From: Acidobacteriota bacterium
GTDB taxonomy: Bacteria > Acidobacteriota > Terriglobia > Bryobacterales > Bryobacteraceae
NCBI GenBank assembly: GCA_025354525.1
Contig: JANXMS010000558.1
Location: 1-38,320 of the forward strand
DNA: 38,320 nt
Direction of reading: 5' to 3'
The translations under genes were made by a program, and so were the position numbers. The notes under the pieces were generated by a model. That model saw only the letters and a list, made by a program, of their open reading frames with translations. It ran no database searches and was not told the DNA's origin. This document shows positions 2,187-16,395 of the stretch, piece after piece; the first letter of the stretch is position 1; every line of letters starts with the position of its first letter.

Positions 2187-3158
2187 CTAGCTTAAGAGGC
2201 CGCCGTGGCCCAATCCGGCGATCTCCCAACCGGAGATGCGGTATTTGGCCAAAAGGGCGGGTAAAATTAGGTCGACGACGTTCATTTTAGCCGAACGGAA
2301 GCAGCCCGGGGCGGAAATAATCGGAATTTCATCTTTATAGCCCATAAGAAGTAGGCTGCCGGGTTCCACGGGGGCGAGAAAGCGTTCGAGGTGGCACCCG
2401 ATGCGGGCCATGGCGCGACCAACGACGTCTTCGGGCCCAGCGGGAGCGGTGGTGGAAGCCACCAGGATCACCGCTGGCTTTGCTCGGATCAGATGCTGGA
2501 GCGCGCGAGCGACGACCGCTTCGTCTTCTAACGCGCTGAGGACGAAGTTAGAAGTTGCACCGAATTTCTCCAGGCGCTGGCGCATGACATTTTCAAACAG
2601 TTGGCGGGCTCGATCACCGGCGACGGGATCGGTGTAGAGGACGGCGGCTTGGGGATCCTGCATGGGGCGGGCCTGGAGAATGGGGCCGCGCTCGCGGAGG
2701 ATGGAGATTACCGCTTCGAGTTCGGGCGCGGCGACAGCAAAGGGGGTGGATTTTACCGTGGCGACGCGCTGGCCGGCGGTGGCGTAGCTGAAGTTCGTAA
2801 GCGTGGCGATGACGATGGACGCGGTGCAGTTGATCTGCTTAAGAAGTTCATCGTCAACGAGAAGGCAGCAATCCTGAGTGGCAAAGAGGTTGGCTCGTCC
2901 GCCGGCGGCAGGCCGGATCTCCAGAGCCCCGCAGCCAATGGCGGTGGCCACCTGCAGCACCGCTTCGTCTTCGGTGACTTCGCCCTCGTCTAAGGAGGTG
3001 ACCCAAACCTCGGCCATGCCTTCGGTCTCAAGGAGGCGGACATCTTCCTCATTCAAGATATGCCCCTTAGCGAGGAGCTTCTTGCCGCCGGGTCGAAAAA
3101 TCGTGCAGCAGAGAATTCGTCCGGTGGACTCGCGGACATCGACGGTGAGAGCTTTCAT
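2187..3158 (-). CDS. Molybdopterin-binding (MoCF-type) domain protein
   Basis: This 323-residue protein resembles stand-alone molybdopterin-binding proteins containing the MogA/MoeA-type MoCF domain. The C-terminal half carries the pattern of that fold: a strand ending in AVILVASTT, an acidic PEDVVGRA segment, then GSLLLMGYKDEIPIISAPGC, which matches the substrate-binding loop region. The N-terminal half is a different domain of about 150 residues that I do not recognise. Such proteins are expected to handle molybdopterin or bind it as sensors; no other molybdenum-cofactor gene is in the window. It is monocistronic, with a hairpin terminator downstream and a 281-bp upstream spacer containing a TATAAT. 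The general family is fairly secure, the exact role is not. Confidence 0.7.
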   Translation of the reverse strand: MKALTVDVRESTGRILCCTIFRPGGKKLLAKGHILNEEDVRLLETEGMAEVWVTSLDEGEVTEDEAVLQVATAIGCGALEIRPAAGGRANLFATQDCCLLVDDELLKQINCTASIVIATLTNFSYATAGQRVATVKSTPFAVAAPELEAVISILRERGPILQARPMQDPQAAVLYTDPVAGDRARQLFENVMRQRLEKFGATSNFVLSALEDEAVVARALQHLIRAKPAVILVASTTAPAGPEDVVGRAMARIGCHLERFLAPVEPGSLLLMGYKDEIPIISAPGCFRSAKMNVVDLILPALLAKYRISGWEIAGLGHGGLLS

Positions 3159-3187
3159 ACTTGCCTCTTTAAAACAAAATAATACTG

Positions 3188-3230
3188 ATCTGAATTGATA
3201 TACAGATGGGATACTTTGTTGCTGATTATA
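3188..3230 (-). promoter_or_regulatory. Candidate promoter -10 and operator-like dyad upstream of the MoCF gene
   Basis: On the minus strand a perfect TATAAT occurs at 3230-3225, about 67 bases before the ATG at 3158; no good -35 hexamer is seen 16-18 bases upstream. Between it and the gene lies an inverted repeat ATCTG-N10-CAGAT (3188-3207), placed where a repressor would block transcription. The remainder of the 281-bp spacer (3159-3439) shows no coding sequence. Confidence 0.35.
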
Positions 3231-3393
3231 CAGACAGGTGGCGTTTGTCGTACATAAGTTCTCTGATTATTTTTGAGTTCATTTGCGGGTAATGCACGGA
3301 GGCTAACGAATGTAGTTGTGAAGCGAGGAGATGGGGAGGGTAGTACTATACCTGTGAGTTTTGTTGCAAGTATTCCTAGTTATACGTTGGTAC

Positions 3394-3438
3394 TATCGAT
3401 CGATAATGCCCCCATTTGGGGGTATTCTTAATACCCCC
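3394..3438 (-). repeat. Overlapping alternative hairpins after the N-acetylglutamate synthase gene
   Basis: Directly after the stop codon at 3440 the minus strand folds as GGGGGTATT-AAG-AATACCCCC (3438-3418, perfect 9-bp stem). The CCCCC arm (3422-3418) can instead pair with a GGGGG at 3413-3409, so two hairpins are mutually exclusive. A 12-base palindrome TATCGATCGATA follows at 3394-3405. There is no T tract, so simple intrinsic termination is doubtful, though the position fits the 3' end of the arginine operon. Confidence 0.5.
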
Positions 3439-3439
3439 C

Positions 3440-3967
3440 TTAAGGGGCGAGGGCCTTCAGCATAGCTATCTCATCACACGCTTGAAACTTCGGGCACCGA
3501 AGGCAATCTTTCCAAGCCTTTAGCGGCAATTCCCCGCGGTCGACGACTTCGTACCCTAATTTTCGGAAAAAGCCATCGACGTAGGTAAAGGCGAAAAGCG
3601 TACGGAGACCGAAGGCAATGGCCTCTCTTTCGAGAGATTCGAGTAGTTGTCGCCCTAGGCCGTGCTGTTTCCAGCCCGGGTCGACGGCGAGGCTGCGAAT
3701 TTCAGCGGCCAGCGGGCTATAGATGTGCAGGGCGGCGCAGGCGACGAGCCTGGAGCCGGCATATATTACGGTAAAATCGCGAATATTTTCCGCCATTTCA
3801 AACTCGGTGCGAGGGAGCATTATCCCCTTGGCGGCGTAATCGTTGATAAGGCCGAGAAGCGGCCCAATGTCCTTGAGAGGGGCACTTCTGAGTTCGGTTG
3901 GGCCTTCCCCATACTCGGAAGGCACGAACGAGCGTGGTGCGGCGATCGAGATGAGGGGGCTGTTCAT
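3440..3967 (-). CDS. argA: N-acetylglutamate synthase, short GNAT type
   Basis: This 175-residue protein is a single GNAT acetyltransferase domain, expected to acetylate glutamate with acetyl-CoA as the first step of arginine synthesis. The acetyl-CoA pyrophosphate loop is visible as QHGLGRQL after the strand EIRSLAVDP, and the C-terminal segment WKDCLRCPKFQACDE with three cysteines is typical of the short N-acetylglutamate synthases that lack the kinase-like domain. Its ATG follows the argB stop codon with no gap (TAAATG), so it is the third gene of argC-argB-argA and probably translationally coupled. The symbol is functional; some authors reserve argA for the long form. Confidence 0.85.
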   Translation of the reverse strand: MNSPLISIAAPRSFVPSEYGEGPTELRSAPLKDIGPLLGLINDYAAKGIMLPRTEFEMAENIRDFTVIYAGSRLVACAALHIYSPLAAEIRSLAVDPGWKQHGLGRQLLESLEREAIAFGLRTLFAFTYVDGFFRKLGYEVVDRGELPLKAWKDCLRCPKFQACDEIAMLKALAP

Positions 3968-4741
3968 TTATCCTCTGACGAAGCGGGTTCCGACGGGTTC
4001 CTGGGCTAGGAGTCGGGCGACGATATTGACGGCCCCGCCGGGAGCAATGACGACCTCTTCGACCCCGCCTAGAAGGGCGTCAGCGGCGGCGTTGAGTTTG
4101 GCCTGCATCCCGCCCGTGGCGACGCCGGTTTCGATGAGCGCGCGGCTTTCGGCAAGGGTGAGGACGGGGATAACGTGGCCGGAGGCGTCTTTAACGCCGT
4201 CGACGTCGGTGAGGAAGAGGAGCTTAGAGGCTCGGTAACCGATGGCGCACGCGACGGCCATTTGGTCGGCGTTGACGTTATAGATATTGCCGAGGCGATC
4301 TCCGGCGACGCAGGCGACGACGGGGAGGAGGTGGCCGGCGGTGAGGACTTCGAGCACAGCGGGGTTAGAACGGATGACCCGACCGACGGCACCGAGTTCG
4401 GGGCGGAGCTGCTCGGCTTCGGTGAGCCCGGCATCAATGCCGCTGAGGCCGACGGCTTGCGCACCGGCGGCTACAAGGGAGGCGACGAGGAGGTGGTTGA
4501 CCGTGCCGGCGAAGACCTTCAACACGGCATCGAGCACTTCGGGTGTGGTGACGCGGAGACCTTCGACGAAATGGTTTTCGACGTTGCGTTCGGCGAGGAA
4601 GCGGGTCATCTGCTTGCCTCCGCCGTGGACGACGACGGTTTCCGGATTGGCGGCAAAGGCTTGGGCGAGTTGGGCGCTGATGGCCGAGCGGGAGGCCGCA
4701 TCGTCGAGAAGCGTGCCGCCGAGTTTGATGAGCAGTCTCAT
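3968..4741 (-). CDS. argB: Acetylglutamate kinase
   Basis: This 257-residue amino-acid kinase phosphorylates N-acetylglutamate with ATP, the second step of arginine synthesis. It starts with the phosphate-binding strand LLIKLGGTLL (Lys6), followed by HGGGKQMT for substrate and phosphate binding, NVNADQMA in the middle and LLFLTDVDGVKD, then the ATGGMQAKL segment with the catalytic lysine. The length is that of the short, arginine-insensitive type; I see no N-terminal helix of the kind found in feedback-inhibited hexameric enzymes, which is an inference. The ATG overlaps the argC stop as ATGA, and the stop abuts the argA start. Confidence 0.95.
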   Translation of the reverse strand: MRLLIKLGGTLLDDAASRSAISAQLAQAFAANPETVVVHGGGKQMTRFLAERNVENHFVEGLRVTTPEVLDAVLKVFAGTVNHLLVASLVAAGAQAVGLSGIDAGLTEAEQLRPELGAVGRVIRSNPAVLEVLTAGHLLPVVACVAGDRLGNIYNVNADQMAVACAIGYRASKLLFLTDVDGVKDASGHVIPVLTLAESRALIETGVATGGMQAKLNAAADALLGGVEEVVIAPGGAVNIVARLLAQEPVGTRFVRG

Positions 4742-5718
4742 AGCAGGCCCTGCGTTTCGGGGAAGCCGAGAATGAGGTTCATGTTTTGGATGGCTTGGCC
4801 GGCGGCACCCTTGACGAGATTGTCGATGGCGGCGACGACGATGCCCCGTTTGGTACGGCCGTCGAAGACGACGCCGATGTCGCAGAAGTTGGTGCGGGCG
4901 ACGGCGCGGAGGTCGGGGACCTTGCCGGGTTCGTAAATGCGGACGAAGGGTTCGTCGGCGTAGCGGGTTTCGTACATGCCGACGATCTCGGCTGCGCTTT
5001 TGAGATCCGAGGCGCGGAAGTAGATGGTTTCGAGGATGCCGCGGTGGACCGGGATCAATTGGGCGGCGAAGCTGAACTCGGCTTCGCGGAGGCCGGTATT
5101 CTGAAGGACTTCGGCGACGTGGCGATGGTAGAGCAACGAGTAGGCCGAGAAGTTTTCGGTGACTTCGCAGAAGTGGGTGGCGAGGCTGGCTTTGCGTCCG
5201 GCGCCGCTGACGCCGCTTTTTGCGTCGCAGACGACGCCAGCTTGGCGGTCGATGACATCGACGAGAGGGACGAGGGCGAGGCTGGCGGCGGTGGGGTAGC
5301 AGCCGGGATTGGAGATGAGGCGTTTGCCGACGGCGTCGGCGCGGTTGAGTTCGGGGAGGACGTAGGCGGCTTCGGCGAGCAGTTCGGGCTGGGTGTGCTC
5401 TTCTTTGTACCAGCGCTGGTAGTTTTCGGGGGTGCCGAGGCGGAAGGCTCCGGAAAGGTCGACGATTTTGGCACCGGCGGCGAGGTAGCCGGGGGCGAGA
5501 TCCATGGAAACTTCGGGCGGGGTGGCGAGGAAGATGCCGTCGAGGGAGGCAGCAGCGACGGCTTCGGCGGAGGCTGACATGGTGGCCTGGCCTTTGACGG
5601 CGGCCGCCTCTTCCCGGTGCTCCATGAGAAACACTTCGACGTCGGCGTGACGACTCAGCAATTGAACCAACTCTGCGCCGCTATAACCTCGAAAACCAAC
5701 GATTCCAATCTTTTTCAT
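4738..5718 (-). CDS. argC: N-acetyl-gamma-glutamyl-phosphate reductase
   Basis: This 326-residue enzyme reduces N-acetylglutamyl phosphate to the semialdehyde with NADPH, the third step of arginine synthesis. The N-terminus has the dinucleotide-binding pattern GIVGFRGYSGAEL, and the catalytic cysteine lies in SNPGCYPT. The later segments GVSGAGRK and HRHVAEV and the C-terminal NLVKGAAGQAIQNMN are typical of the family. It is the first gene of the three-gene arginine operon. No clear Shine-Dalgarno is seen before the ATG; instead an AT-rich palindrome resembling ARG boxes ends 4 bases upstream, suggesting direct control by an arginine repressor. Confidence 0.95.
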   Translation of the reverse strand: MKKIGIVGFRGYSGAELVQLLSRHADVEVFLMEHREEAAAVKGQATMSASAEAVAAASLDGIFLATPPEVSMDLAPGYLAAGAKIVDLSGAFRLGTPENYQRWYKEEHTQPELLAEAAYVLPELNRADAVGKRLISNPGCYPTAASLALVPLVDVIDRQAGVVCDAKSGVSGAGRKASLATHFCEVTENFSAYSLLYHRHVAEVLQNTGLREAEFSFAAQLIPVHRGILETIYFRASDLKSAAEIVGMYETRYADEPFVRIYEPGKVPDLRAVARTNFCDIGVVFDGRTKRGIVVAAIDNLVKGAAGQAIQNMNLILGFPETQGLL

Positions 5719-11823: not shown

Positions 11824-12646
11824 GGGGAAATATTTCAGCGGTCGAAAACTTTTGCCCTCGGCGAGACGCGCACTGTTTCTCTCTCTTTGCTCTTGCGTCA
11901 ATGGGCGCGGCCGCCATTGGTCCTGACGCTTTCGGCTACACCGCTTTTAGTACGCGGTTCAATTTTGTGAACATCTCGTGCACGGGAACGACTATTCTTG
12001 CCAACAACAACGACACCGCCCAAAGCGTAGGCATTGGGTTTAACTTTGGGTTTTATGGAAGCACCCAGACGAGCGCCTTTGTGAGTTCGAACGGGATGCT
12101 CGCGTTTGGAAGTTCGATTAGTTCCCTTACTCCACGGAATCTCGCGACGACCAGCCCTCCAAACTAACGTACCTGTCATCGCGGTGCTGTGGGACGACTG
12201 GACCACCGTAAAGAGCACGTATCCGGCATCGGACGCTGTTTGCACGCAGACGGTGGGGGTCCCTGGAAGCCAGCAGTTTATTGTGCAGTGGAACAATACG
12301 TTCGGCTGTTGCCCCGTAGGAACCCAGCCACTGGTTTTCCGGGCGATCCTGCTTGAGGGTTCGGGGAACATACTGCTGCAATATCAAAAGGTGTTGAGTG
12401 GGGTTGGGCTACAGAGTAGAGCTGGCGACAACGGCGACAACGGCTCTTCGGCGGCGGTGGGAATTCGCGATGTTGACGGCCAGCTGAACGGTCGCAATCC
12501 GCATTGGTCCTTTTCGCCCGGCACGGCGGTGATTGCGAACGAGTCGGCGATTCTGTTCAGCACTTCGACCGCGGTTCCAGAGCCGTCCACGTTCCTGTTG
12601 CGTGGCGTTGCTGCCGGCGCGGAAGCGGCGTAAAGCTAGTGACTAG
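11813..12646 (+). pseudogene. PEP-CTERM-anchored secreted protein, broken by three frameshifts
   Basis: The pieces of one exported protein are spread over three frames. An ATG at 11813 opens a basic N-region and hydrophobic stretch (MKPKGKYFSGRKLLPSARR). The signal-peptide core then continues in the next frame (FSLFALASMGAAA) into a beta-rich body ending near 12165. The body resumes in the third frame (VPVIAVLWDDW, then GIRDVDGQLNGRNPHWSF) to the sorting motif VPEPSTFLL at about 12577-12603. The expected C-terminal tail VALLPARKRRKAS is found only after a third shift, ending at TAG 12644-12646. All shifts go +1. The body is a beta-sandwich-like domain seen in acidobacterial PEP-CTERM proteins. 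The first shift falls near a (TC)4 repeat. Decay is more likely than sequencing error, but the latter is possible. Confidence 0.75.
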
Positions 12647-12717
12647 GCTGGCTGTGCTAAGCTCAAAAATTGGTTTGACGACCAAATATTCCCTACAGTT
12701 TTGGAGGCAGGGTTTTC

Positions 12718-13869
12718 GTGGCAGAAGGTATACGTCATATTTTTACTTCCGAGTCGGTAACGGAAGGTCATCCCGATAAGATGGCCGACCAGATTTCCGA
12801 CGCCGTTTTGGATGCCGTTCTCACAGACGATCCGACAGGCCGCGTTGCTTGTGAGGTTCTGGTTACCACCGGCATTTGTCTGGTGGCGGGCGAGATCACG
12901 ACGACGACCTACGTCGACGTGCCGAAGTTGGCGCGCGAGGTGATCGCTCAAATCGGATTCACCGATGCGGCGATGGGCTTCGACGCCAAGACTTGCGGCG
13001 TGTTGAACGTGATCCAGGCGCAGAGCCCGGACATCGCGATGGGCGTGGACACCGGCGGCGCCGGCGACCAGGGCCTGATGTTTGGCTACGCTTGTACGGA
13101 AACGGAAGAGCTGATGCCGCTGCCGATCACCTTGGCACACAAGTTGGCTCGTCGGTTGAGCGAATCGCGCAATTCGAAAGAGTTGGCGTGGTTGCGCCCG
13201 GACGGCAAGAGCCAAGTTTCGGTGGAGTATGTCAACGGGCAGCCCGTGCGCATTGATGCGGTGGTTGTTTCGACGCAGCACGATGATGCGGTGAGCACCG
13301 AAGAGCTTCGCGCGGAAGTGAAGAAAAAGATCATCGACGTCGTGATTCCGGCGAGTATGGTGGATTCGGGTACGAAGTACCACATCAACCCCACGGGTCG
13401 CTTCGTGATCGGCGGGCCACACGGCGATACGGGCTTGACGGGTCGGAAGATCATTGTTGACACGTACGGCGGAATGGGTCGTCACGGCGGCGGCGCTTTC
13501 TCTGGTAAAGACCCGACGAAGGTAGACCGTTCGGCTTGCTACATGGCTCGCTATGTGGCGAAGAACTTAGTTGCCGCTGGATTGGCGACGCGCGTGGAAG
13601 TGCAGTTGGCTTACGCGATCGGCGTGGCTGAGCCGGTATCGGTGAACGTTAACACGTTTGGTACGGGCGTTTTGGACGAGGAGAAGATTGTGGGCTTGAT
13701 TCGCTCGCACTTCCCGCTGACTCCGAAGGGTATGATCGATCATCTCGATCTGCGCCGTCCGATCTACCGTGCGACTGCGGCGTTCGGCCATTTCGGCCGG
13801 AACGAATTCCCGTGGGAGTCCACTGCGAAAGCCTCCGATTTGCGGGCTGACGCTGGGCTTACCAGCTAG
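12718..13869 (+). CDS. metK: S-adenosylmethionine synthase
   Basis: This 383-residue enzyme makes S-adenosylmethionine from methionine and ATP. Typical motifs are [23 protein letters not shown] at the N-terminus (ATP-binding His18), the GAGDQG loop followed by [12 protein letters not shown], the basic [13 protein letters not shown] segment, and the phosphate-binding [16 protein letters not shown] loop. The start codon is GTG at 12718 with a GGAGG Shine-Dalgarno 11 bases upstream; the length matches the family. It is followed after 18 bp by the SAH-hydrolase homologue and then tig, forming a plus-strand cluster. I see no SAM riboswitch in the 70 bp upstream. Confidence 0.97.
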
Positions 13870-13887: not shown

Positions 13888-15081
13888 ATGGCCACGAACG
13901 CGGATCCGATTGTCGATTTCGACATCCAGGACCTCGGCTTGGCCGAGTCTGGGAAGCGGCGTATCGAGTGGGCGTTCCAATCGATGCCGGTGCTGCAAGC
14001 GATTCGCAAGCAGTTTATCAAGGCGCAACCTCTGGCTGGGTTTCGAGTGGCGGCTTGTCTGCCGGTTGCTCCGGAGACGGCAAATTTGATGGTGACGTTG
14101 CGAGACGGAGGCGCTCAGGTAGTCCTGAGCGCCTCCGATTCGTTTATGCGGCAAGACGATGTGGTGGCAGCGTTGGCGAAGGACTACGGGATCGCCGTGG
14201 TGAGTTTGGCGGACGCGCTGGCGACGGAGCCGCATTGGGCGCTGGATCATGGTGGTTTGCTGTTGCGCGATGCGCCGGCGAGCTTGCTGGGGGCGACGAT
14301 GGACAGGGCGACTTCGCGGGAATTGGCGTTTCCGGTGATCGCGGTGGACCAGGCGCAAACGTCGCATTTGTTTGATCATCGATACGGCGCGGGGCAGTCG
14401 GTGATTGACGGGATTTTGCGGGCGACGAATTTATTGCTGAGCGGTTTGACGGTGGTGGTGGCGGGTTATGGGTGGTGTGGGAAGGGGATTGCGACGCGGG
14501 TGCGGGGGATGGGGGCGAACGTGATCGTCACCGAGATTGACCCGATGCGGGCGCTGGAAGCTTTGATGGATGGCCATCGGGTGATGTCGATGCCGGAGGC
14601 GGTGGCCTTAGGACATTTGGTGATCACGGCGACGGGGAACAAGAACACGATTGGCCGCGACCATATTGACAAGATGAAGAGCGGGGCGATTTTGGTGAAT
14701 TCGGGGCACTCGCCGGTCGAGATCGACCTAGGCGCATTGGACCGCGTCGCATCGAGCCATCGACCGATTCAGGATTTGGTGGAAGAGTACGTTTTACGGG
14801 ACGGGCGGCGGGTTTACGTATTGGCGCAGGGACAACCGATTAACGCGGCGGCGGCGGGCGGACAGCCGGCGACGGTGCGGGATATCAGCTTGGCGAACCA
14901 CGCCTTGGCGCTCGAATATTTGAGCAAGAATTACACGACTATGCAGCATCGGGCGCATGCGGTGCCCGAGGAGATCGACCGTCAGGTGGCGCGTCTCAAG
15001 CTTGAGGCGCTCGGTTTGAAGATTGATCGGCTGACTCCGGAACAGGAAGCCTATTTGGCGAGCTGGCCGGAAGCAAATTAA
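13888..15081 (+). CDS. S-adenosylhomocysteine hydrolase homologue with altered active site
   Basis: This 397-residue protein is homologous over its whole length to adenosylhomocysteinase of the shorter bacterial/archaeal form. The NAD domain is well kept: GYGWCGKG at 193-200, VTEIDP and NSGHSPVEID with His274. The substrate domain is not. By motif alignment with the human enzyme, His55 is Pro59, Asp131 is His121, Glu156 is Asp139, Lys186 is Ser159, Asn191 is His164 and His353 is Gln326; only Asp190 (Asp163) remains. The STQDD loop reads FMRQDD. It may therefore be a pseudoenzyme or act on another substrate, despite its metK neighbour. The start has a GAGGA Shine-Dalgarno. Homology is certain; the normal ahcY activity is doubtful. 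Confidence 0.9.
   Translation: MATNADPIVDFDIQDLGLAESGKRRIEWAFQSMPVLQAIRKQFIKAQPLAGFRVAACLPVAPETANLMVTLRDGGAQVVLSASDSFMRQDDVVAALAKDYGIAVVSLADALATEPHWALDHGGLLLRDAPASLLGATMDRATSRELAFPVIAVDQAQTSHLFDHRYGAGQSVIDGILRATNLLLSGLTVVVAGYGWCGKGIATRVRGMGANVIVTEIDPMRALEALMDGHRVMSMPEAVALGHLVITATGNKNTIGRDHIDKMKSGAILVNSGHSPVEIDLGALDRVASSHRPIQDLVEEYVLRDGRRVYVLAQGQPINAAAAGGQPATVRDISLANHALALEYLSKNYTTMQHRAHAVPEEIDRQVARLKLEALGLKIDRLTPEQEAYLASWPEAN
14106..14137 (+). repeat. Perfect 14-bp hairpin inside the SAH-hydrolase-like gene
   Basis: CGGAGGCGCTCAGG, a TAGT loop and CCTGAGCGCCTCCG form a perfect 14-bp inverted repeat in codons 73-83. It is followed by GATTCGTTTATG, so there is no proper T tract. It coincides with the stretch where the protein departs from the conserved STQDD loop. 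Confidence 0.85.
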
Positions 15082-15093
15082 GATAAGGATTCC

Positions 15094-16395
15094 ATGGCAT
15101 TACTCGAAGGTTGCAAGCACGAAGTAGAATTGACCGTCCCATTGCTGACGATTGCGGACGAGACGGATAGGGCGGTCGAGAAGATCCGCGCGAAGGTACA
15201 GCTGCCGGGGTTTCGTCCGGGCAAGGTGCCGGCGTCGCTGATTCGGCAGCGTTTTCAGAGCGAGATCCGTCAGGACGTGATGGAAGCGGCGATTCCGAAG
15301 GTATTCCACGAGTACGCCACGGCGGAGAAGCTGCAAGTTGTCAGCCAGCCGAACGTGGTGGAGATGAAATGGGAAGGGAATGAGCCGATGTGGTTCAAGG
15401 CCCAATTTGAAGTGGCCCCGGAGTTTGAGCTCGAAGACAACTATCGCGGGATCACGGTGCCGTATGCGCAGCCGGTGGTGGAGGACGCGAAGATCGAAGA
15501 GCGTCTGGTGACTTTGCAGCAGCAGAAGGCGGAGTATGTGAACGTGGATCCGCGGGCGTCTGAGATCGGCGACCATGTGCTCGTAGAGTTGGAGAGTTTG
15601 AGCGGCGCGGCGCAGCCGATCAACGAGAAAGAGGTTGCCCTTGAGTTGGGTGCCGAGATGACTTTGGCGGCGTTCAACGAGAACGTTGTGGGCATGGAAC
15701 CGGGCGATGAGAAACAGATGGAAATCGTGTACCCGGAAGACTATGGGGCGGAGAATCTAGCGGGCAAGACAGTTAATTTTCGGGTGAAGTTGACGACGAT
15801 TCGGCGGAAGGAGCTTCCGGAGTTGAACGACGACTTTGCGCAGGATCTGGGCGACTTCAAGACGCTGGACGAGTTGCGGGAAGCGATTAAGCGGTCGATG
15901 CTTTCCGAACGGGAACGCGAGGCGCAGGGCGCGTCGCGGGAGAAGTTGCTGGACGGGTTGGTGGCGCTGTATGATTTCCCGATTCCGGAAGTTTTCGTGG
16001 AGCGGCAGATTGAGAGTTCGCTGGAGCAGCGGCTGCGTGGACTGGCCGAACAAGGCATTGACCCGCGGAAGCTGAATCTGGACTGGACCAAGCTGCGGGC
16101 GTCACAAGTGCCGCAAGCGACCAAAGACGTGCGGGCTTCGCTGTTGCTCGAGCGGATAGGGGAGCGGGAGGCGATCCACGCGACTTCGGAAGAGGTGGAT
16201 GCCGAGGTGAACCGGATCGCTCGTCAGGAGCGGGAAGCGGTGGCTTCGGTGCGGCGTCGGTTGGAGAAAGAAGGGGTGCTCGGGCGAATTGCCGGGCACA
16301 TCCGGACGGAGAAGATCCTGGCATTCTTGTTTGAGCAGGCAACGAAAGTGGCACCGGATCCTGAGGTTTTGGCTATCGAGGCTCCGGCGGAGTAG
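15094..16395 (+). CDS. tig: Trigger factor (ribosome-associated chaperone / peptidyl-prolyl isomerase)
   Basis: This 433-residue protein is trigger factor, which binds the ribosomal exit tunnel and shelters nascent chains. The ribosome-docking signature GFRPGKVP is at 39-46. The peptidyl-prolyl isomerase domain spans roughly 145-245 (IGDHVLVELESL through VNFRVKLTTI) and the helical substrate-binding C-terminal domain starts at LPELNDDFAQDLGDFKTLDEL. An AAGGA Shine-Dalgarno lies in the 12-bp gap after the preceding gene. The usual downstream clpP-clpX is not present; decayed DNA follows instead, so this is probably the end of the cluster or a rearranged one. Confidence 0.95.
   Translation: MALLEGCKHEVELTVPLLTIADETDRAVEKIRAKVQLPGFRPGKVPASLIRQRFQSEIRQDVMEAAIPKVFHEYATAEKLQVVSQPNVVEMKWEGNEPMWFKAQFEVAPEFELEDNYRGITVPYAQPVVEDAKIEERLVTLQQQKAEYVNVDPRASEIGDHVLVELESLSGAAQPINEKEVALELGAEMTLAAFNENVVGMEPGDEKQMEIVYPEDYGAENLAGKTVNFRVKLTTIRRKELPELNDDFAQDLGDFKTLDELREAIKRSMLSEREREAQGASREKLLDGLVALYDFPIPEVFVERQIESSLEQRLRGLAEQGIDPRKLNLDWTKLRASQVPQATKDVRASLLLERIGEREAIHATSEEVDAEVNRIARQEREAVASVRRRLEKEGVLGRIAGHIRTEKILAFLFEQATKVAPDPEVLAIEAPAE

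Follow-up and report, generated by a model that had tools for sequence, protein, structure and literature searches.

The gene at 13888-15081 of the window, by which we mean the whole 38,320-nucleotide stretch analysed, probably encodes a pseudoenzyme kept by selection: a non-catalytic, oligomeric and usually NAD-bound scaffold or regulator that would act with a partner in the S-adenosylmethionine (SAM) cycle. The protein, P0001, descends, as judged from sequence comparison, from the short-type (archaeal-like) AhcY that is located after metK across this acidobacterial family. It is read from one uninterrupted open frame, which lies between two other genes:

12718-13869, plus strand: metK, S-adenosylmethionine synthetase (three Pfam S-AdoMet_synt domains), which opens the run of metK, presumed dead ahcY and tig.
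13888-15081, plus strand: P0001, putative short-type AhcY pseudoenzyme of 397 aa (open reading frame, profile matches and residue comparison).
15094-16395, plus strand: tig, trigger factor, the downstream neighbour (domain content and synteny).

The stop codon of metK lies 18 nt before the start of P0001, whose ATG is preceded by GAGGA, and tig begins 12 nt downstream on the same strand. Among 60 short-type loci, metK is upstream and on the same strand in 58, and tig is downstream in 45; for the other 15, tig was not found within the stretch examined. The original prediction spoke of a SAM-cycle operon; spacing and synteny are the basis of that term, and a sequence scan for a promoter-like site serving the metK-P0001-tig run found none. 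Riboswitch control of the putative operon was rejected, as an Rfam search of the window gave no match; the region upstream of metK (12100-12760) gave none at E values up to 1, and seven other loci returned one tRNA only. Inside the P0001 gene, at 14106-14137, is a perfect inverted repeat of 14 pairs with a T-containing tail. It was discarded as a conserved terminator, being strong in two of the eight full-length sequences of the clade described below (including the nearest species) and not in the other six. Farther upstream, at 11901-12633, two overlapping frames look by eye like one exported protein ending in the PEP-CTERM-like VPEPSTFLL, possibly with a frameshift.

Full-length homology to S-adenosylhomocysteine (SAH) hydrolase (SAHH), claimed in the original prediction, was borne out by Pfam domains and solved structures. 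Both SAHH domains are present in P0001 (AdoHcyase_NAD, 2.4e-48; AdoHcyase, 4.3e-31), and solved SAHHs align to it over its length, the nearest being the short enzymes of Synechocystis, Sulfolobus and Pyrococcus, with the Thermotoga and Methanococcus enzymes next. Its named relatives come from Acidobacteriota MAGs, many of them Bryobacteraceae or Bryobacterales, plus Candidatus Sulfopaludibacter; the bacteria concerned live in soil and peat. P0001 misses the cut-off of the NCBIfam equivalog TIGR00936 (434.5 vs 497.6 bits) and passes that of NCBIfam NF004005, adenosylhomocysteinase (434.8 vs 275 bits). Intact orthologues usually have 426 residues, 29 more than P0001, and the losses fall within the substrate domain.

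The predicted structure of P0001 (pLDDT 86, pTM 0.80) has the SAHH fold, as does a control model of an intact orthologue, and its best 50 Foldseek matches were all SAHHs or SAHH-like. Two substrate-domain helices of the control (146-151 and 160-171) are missing from the P0001 model. Against the open structures 3x2e and 1b3r the P0001 model gave TMq values of 0.87 and 0.89, and against the ligand-bound 7r39 and 1li4 values of 0.83 and 0.82; the corresponding values for the control were 0.92, 0.91, 0.89 and 0.88. The open and closed states are those given in a table of PMC7765604, except for 7r39, whose state was taken from its title. A "locked open" conformation of P0001 was considered and dropped, since the control model shares the preference for open structures, though in less marked form.

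For residue comparisons we used what we take to be the human SAHH numbering (H55, E59, D131, E156, K186, N191, H301, N346, H353, M358 and Q365). Intact short-type orthologues have H, D, EETTTG, K, D, N, H and H at the compared sites. The sites in P0001 are listed here, "the eight" being the full-length sequences of its clade, window included:

14062-14064, plus strand: Pro59, replacing the catalytic His (human H55), by alignment with intact orthologues.
14248-14250, plus strand: His121, replacing Asp131, by alignment with intact orthologues.
14299-14316, plus strand: MDRATS (Met138-Ser143), replacing EETTTG, with the next helix of the intact fold lost (alignment; predicted model).
14362-14364, plus strand: Ser159, replacing Lys186, by alignment; Thr in the other seven of the eight.
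14377-14379, plus strand: His164, replacing Asn191, by alignment; His in all eight.
14464-14481, plus strand: GYGWCG, the NAD glycine loop, intact in the window by alignment; GYRWCG in three of the eight.
14707-14709, plus strand: His274, the retained gate His (H301), by alignment; the gate Phe has become Ser275.
14863-14865, plus strand: Gln326, replacing His353, by alignment; Gln in all eight.
14944-15078, plus strand: C-terminal dimerisation tail, the best-conserved region in an alignment of the eight (mean pairwise identity 90.6%).

Catalytic His55, Asp131, Lys186 and Asn191 are all absent from P0001 (Pro59, His121, Ser159 and His164). The nucleobase signature HxTxQ(E) reads PxAxE, and the His-Phe gate reads His274-Ser275. 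Arg331 (for Met358) and His338 (for Gln365) are likewise fixed in all eight. Survivors are Glu63 (E59), an acid at 139 (E156), Asp163, His274 and Asn319 (N346), together with the ribose-binding Glu216 and the NAD glycine loop. The acid at 139 (Asp in two of the eight, Glu in six), Asp163, His274 and Asn319 are kept by all eight. In the passages of PMC7765604 and PMC10978960 that treat the SAHH signature, its His has a role in the reaction and binds the 5'-hydroxyl, and its Thr and Gln/Glu bind adenine. We infer that P0001 probably lacks SAHH activity.

The individual residue calls of the original prediction (Pro59, His121, MDRATS, Ser159, Asp163, His164, His274 and Gln326) were correct. Its statement that only Asp163 and His274 remain was too strong, as Glu63, Asn319 and the acid at 139 also survive. 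An intact NAD site, also claimed there, is found in the window protein and not throughout the group: the second Gly of GxGxxG (Gly195 in the window) is Arg in L081, L082 and L083, and the other five of the eight keep GYGWCG. Thus, NAD binding may not be what is selected.

The true ahcY had been expected elsewhere, and a long AhcY with intact residues was found in the same genome (7.3 Mb, 97% complete). This protein, P0002, is the sole further AhcY found there; it is encoded on contig C114, has 478 aa and is of the long bacterial type. It is about 39% identical to P0001 in the matched part, its scored catalytic residues are canonical, and it is presumably active in SAH hydrolysis. Of the two candidates that had been named for that role, a second canonical ahcY or mtnN, the genome thus has the former; it has no match to the MTA/SAH nucleosidase family TIGR01704, in a search that matched in 12 of 14 control genomes, 7 of them above the cut-off. 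Divergent from the long ahcY is a gene (L003 512-1426, minus strand) with, by eye, ArsR-type DNA-binding and methyltransferase parts, which we take to resemble the SahR regulators of SAH recycling.

Within the genus, sampled as 19 genomes with one per species, the altered short AhcY is full length in eight, window included, and the other seven proteins are 68-93% identical to the window protein. One further genome (58% complete) has two contig-end fragments of it, nine have the long AhcY only, the short copy having been cleanly lost, and one (62% complete) gave no match. In eight of the nine genomes lacking the short copy, metK is followed by tig, with only scattered chance matches of 9-25 residues to P0001; in the ninth the contig ends first. 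In a metK tree whose bootstrap had not settled, the nine carriers form one clade (100/100) and the nine non-carriers another (100/99). The role of the short copy is dispensable in the nine species without the gene.

Where it persists, the gene is well kept, as the original prediction had it. Its frame is open, and a custom codon model applied to the eight sequences, across whose deepest split synonymous change is saturated, put omega at 0.069 overall and at 0.030-0.093 in the individual regions, all four of which stay below 0.1, with omega=1 rejected (2dlnL 1411). Three close pairs had dN/dS of 0.037/0.392, 0.030/0.525 and 0.074/0.638, or 0.06-0.12, and pairs with L037, the most divergent of the eight, about 0.16-0.21. 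With six sequences in IQ-TREE, omega was 0.063 for the short AhcY vs 0.021 for metK. Thus, the altered short AhcY is under purifying selection, less tight than that on metK. A burst of change on the clade stem was proposed and rejected: the stem omega of 0.31 in one branch model was unsupported by a smaller set, in which it was 0.18 or 0.025, the branch length having run to its bound, and a free stem was no better than one ratio (p 0.17). In that smaller set, crown omega was 0.065 vs a saturated background of 0.011; the other branch model gave 0.067 vs 0.056.

Conservation is unevenly distributed along the protein. We compared mean pairwise identities in the eight with those in 42 intact orthologues, a more diverse set, so that only the polarity of the values is comparable. 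Identity was 87.6% vs 76.4% (intact) for the N-terminal helices (residues 12-56), 63.8% vs 80.9% and 60.1% vs 75.3% for the substrate-domain halves (57-115 and 116-160), 89.3% vs 92.2% for 161-180, 84.0% vs 78.0% for the NAD domain (181-323), 72.8% vs 81.2% for 324-352, and 90.6% vs 73.4% for the C tail (353-397). By this measure, the substrate domain is eroded, and the protein retains its N-terminal helices, its NAD domain and the dimerisation tail at its C terminus. The intact set has 225 positions conserved at 95% or more. All eight keep the usual residue at 125 of these, and some of the eight depart from it at another 41; at 27 all have changed, to varying residues, at 14 all share a single new residue, and 18 positions are deleted. 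That all eight lost the usual residue at 41 positions (the 27 and the 14), with 18 more deleted, agrees with the earlier claim that the loss of most catalytic and adenosine-binding residues goes beyond chance.

Altered short copies also occur outside the clade. We scored 60 short-type copies and counted 59, leaving out L071, which a contig end truncates; the count covers only genomes that have a short copy. At least one of ten core residues is altered in 15 of 16 genomes with a long AhcY, the sixteenth (G042) having two changes outside the core only (D134S and Q365V), and in one of 43 genomes without a detected long AhcY (G039). The Fisher p for this association is 6e-12, calculated on related rows (8 of the 16 are the window's clade); independent pairs number 2 on starred (well-supported) branches and 7 on the best tree, which is not enough for a sign test. 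In G039 (locus L016; genome 82% complete), where a long AhcY was not found, Asp131 is Ser. Wherever the short copy has at least two core changes, the genome was found to have a long AhcY too, L071 not being scored; in G121 and G128 it is present as pieces at contig ends. None of the 16 complete short copies in long-AhcY genomes has internal stops.

The altered cores differ, with E156Q alone in G072, H301Y alone in G098, and H55Q and D190G in G019. Because different lineages altered different residues, the pattern argues for repeated catalytic loss. The best protein tree needs 4 label changes, of which starred branches force 1, and the best metK tree, scored for the presence of both genes, needs 7 changes, of which starred branches force 2; well-supported branches thus require no more than one or two origins.

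Outside the clade, eight copies coexist with a long AhcY (G002, G019, G042, G068, G072, G098, L069 and L072). They carry 0 to 9 core changes, and all sit between metK and tig. The long AhcY copies examined in six of these eight genomes are canonical at 20 scored sites, with Gln at E59, which is usual for the long type. We measured erosion as departures at positions 90% conserved in intact enzymes, substrate vs NAD domain. The four most altered copies show the same polarity as the window's clade: 39/82 vs 11/87 in L069, 43/82 vs 31/87 in L072, 52/82 vs 22/87 in G068 and 24/82 vs 18/87 in G002. The substrate domain is mildly more eroded than the NAD domain in G042, G098 and G072, and the weakly altered G019 lacks this polarity (7/82 vs 11/87). 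In the C tail, no altered copy examined has more than 5 of 22 conserved positions changed. For the eight copies, omegas on the terminal branches, which are saturated, were 0.025-0.157. At a separate locus (L132, about 2241-4742, on contig 28 of G290) are tandem SAHH paralogues with HxExK-like or PxExK signatures; in the second, Pro replaces the catalytic His, Gln replaces E156 and Gly replaces the gate His, so that it is possibly a further dead copy, from another family of the class.

Because catalytic residues were lost in genomes with another AhcY while frames stayed open and the scaffold was preserved, we favor a structural use of the protein. In genomes with both types, the long AhcY would hydrolyse SAH, which would leave the short copy free to become non-catalytic. 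The short copy of the window's clade has lost its His/Asp/Lys machinery and substrate-domain helices, whereas the N-terminal helices, the Rossmann NAD domain and the dimerisation tail at the C terminus have been kept. P0001 would then most likely be a partner-binding scaffold or regulator, oligomeric and usually NAD-bound, that works without catalysis. We infer both the oligomeric state and the NAD occupancy, and the SAM-cycle partner is a guess from gene order; candidates are MetK, a methyltransferase and the long AhcY, and the mode of action would resemble that of AHCYL1/IRBIT in animals. Of the three options raised in the original prediction, a pseudoenzyme is the best. A redox-sensing NAD protein is weakened by the Arg in the NAD glycine loop of three of the eight, and an enzyme for another nucleoside is weakened by the substrate domain being the least conserved in the group, although the 14 newly fixed residues still allow it.

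A wider reading, which we advance tentatively, is that the short AhcY next to metK has all along had a second job in these bacteria, one that needs no catalysis; it would have been unmasked repeatedly where a long AhcY took over the hydrolysis, the pseudoenzyme then controlling SAM-cycle proteins. This reading suggests that the second job is carried by the NAD domain and dimerisation tail.

Two other explanations seem unlikely, in equal degree. P0001 could be an enzyme for a new reaction, in which the acid at 139, Asp163, His274 and Asn319 together with His164, Gln326, Arg331 and His338 form a changed NAD-dependent site. The 14 positions at which all eight share one new residue would fit such a site, as would the four residues retained by all, but the substrate domain is the most variable part in the group, the model lacks two helices found in the intact fold, and the NAD glycine loop has Arg in three of eight. 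Alternatively, the dead short copy could be a prozyme-like subunit that joins the long AhcY in mixed oligomers and adjusts its activity. The long AhcY accompanies every short copy with at least two core changes, the dimerisation tail is the best-kept part, and a dead paralogue complexed with an active partner has a precedent in trypanosome AdoMetDC and its prozyme, as described in PMC5201418. However, the two AhcY types share only about 39% identity where they match, and the animal AHCY-AHCYL1 interaction is disputed, according to a passage in PMC12955632.

Less likely still is a redundant gene in slow decay, its frame kept intact only because an interruption would have a polar effect on tig. 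Tight metK-P0001-tig spacing, loss of core residues where a long AhcY exists and clean loss in nine genus species would all be expected of such a gene, but omega is far from 1 (0.069), the C tail is near-invariant, the 16 complete short copies in long-AhcY genomes lack internal stops, and clean deletion is tolerated, metK being next to tig in eight of the nine lacking genomes (the ninth contig ends). That P0001 is a working SAHH with residues supplied from other positions is very improbable: it passes the NF004005 cut-off and keeps Asp163, His274 and the acid at 139, but it misses that of TIGR00936, alignments offer no substitute His or Lys at the lost sites, which vary among the eight, and the helix after EETTTG is absent from the model.

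The reading of P0001 as a selected pseudoenzyme can be set against known systems. With short-type SAHHs (archaeal, Synechocystis- and Thermotoga-like) it shares the fold, domain order, NAD glycine loop and C tail, and with the metK-linked short-type enzymes of this acidobacterial family the metK-tig synteny; it differs in its replaced catalytic His, Asp, Lys and Asn, its loss of EETTTG and the next helix, and its 29 fewer residues. The automatic annotation of these genes as adenosylhomocysteinase is thus probably wrong, though the NF004005 cut-off is passed. S-inosylhomocysteine hydrolases and extremophile SAHHs are further short-type relatives, and their HxExK motif, as given in a portion of PMC10978960, is PxAxE in P0001. 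The long-type P0002 is homologous and differs in its sequence (about 39% identity), its intact residues and its position divergent from the gene that by eye is an ArsR-like methyltransferase. Among the matches listed in a search of open-licence literature, with subscription journals mostly outside its scope, no paper described a bacterial SAHH pseudoenzyme. In animals, AHCYL1/IRBIT and AHCYL2 are, like P0001, dead AHCY paralogues with catalytic substitutions beside an active AHCY, whereas P0001 is bacterial, derives from a short-type enzyme and, at 397 aa, has no N-terminal IRBIT extension. A section of PMC12955632 describes the inactivity of AHCYL proteins and the regulatory roles of dead AHCY paralogues in animals. 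On our best reading, P0001 resembles AHCYL1/2 by convergence, and the bacterial set would be an independent natural experiment beside the animal paralogues, with lineages at different stages of catalytic loss, at one locus and alongside a second AhcY, showing what part of SAHH stays when catalysis is unneeded.
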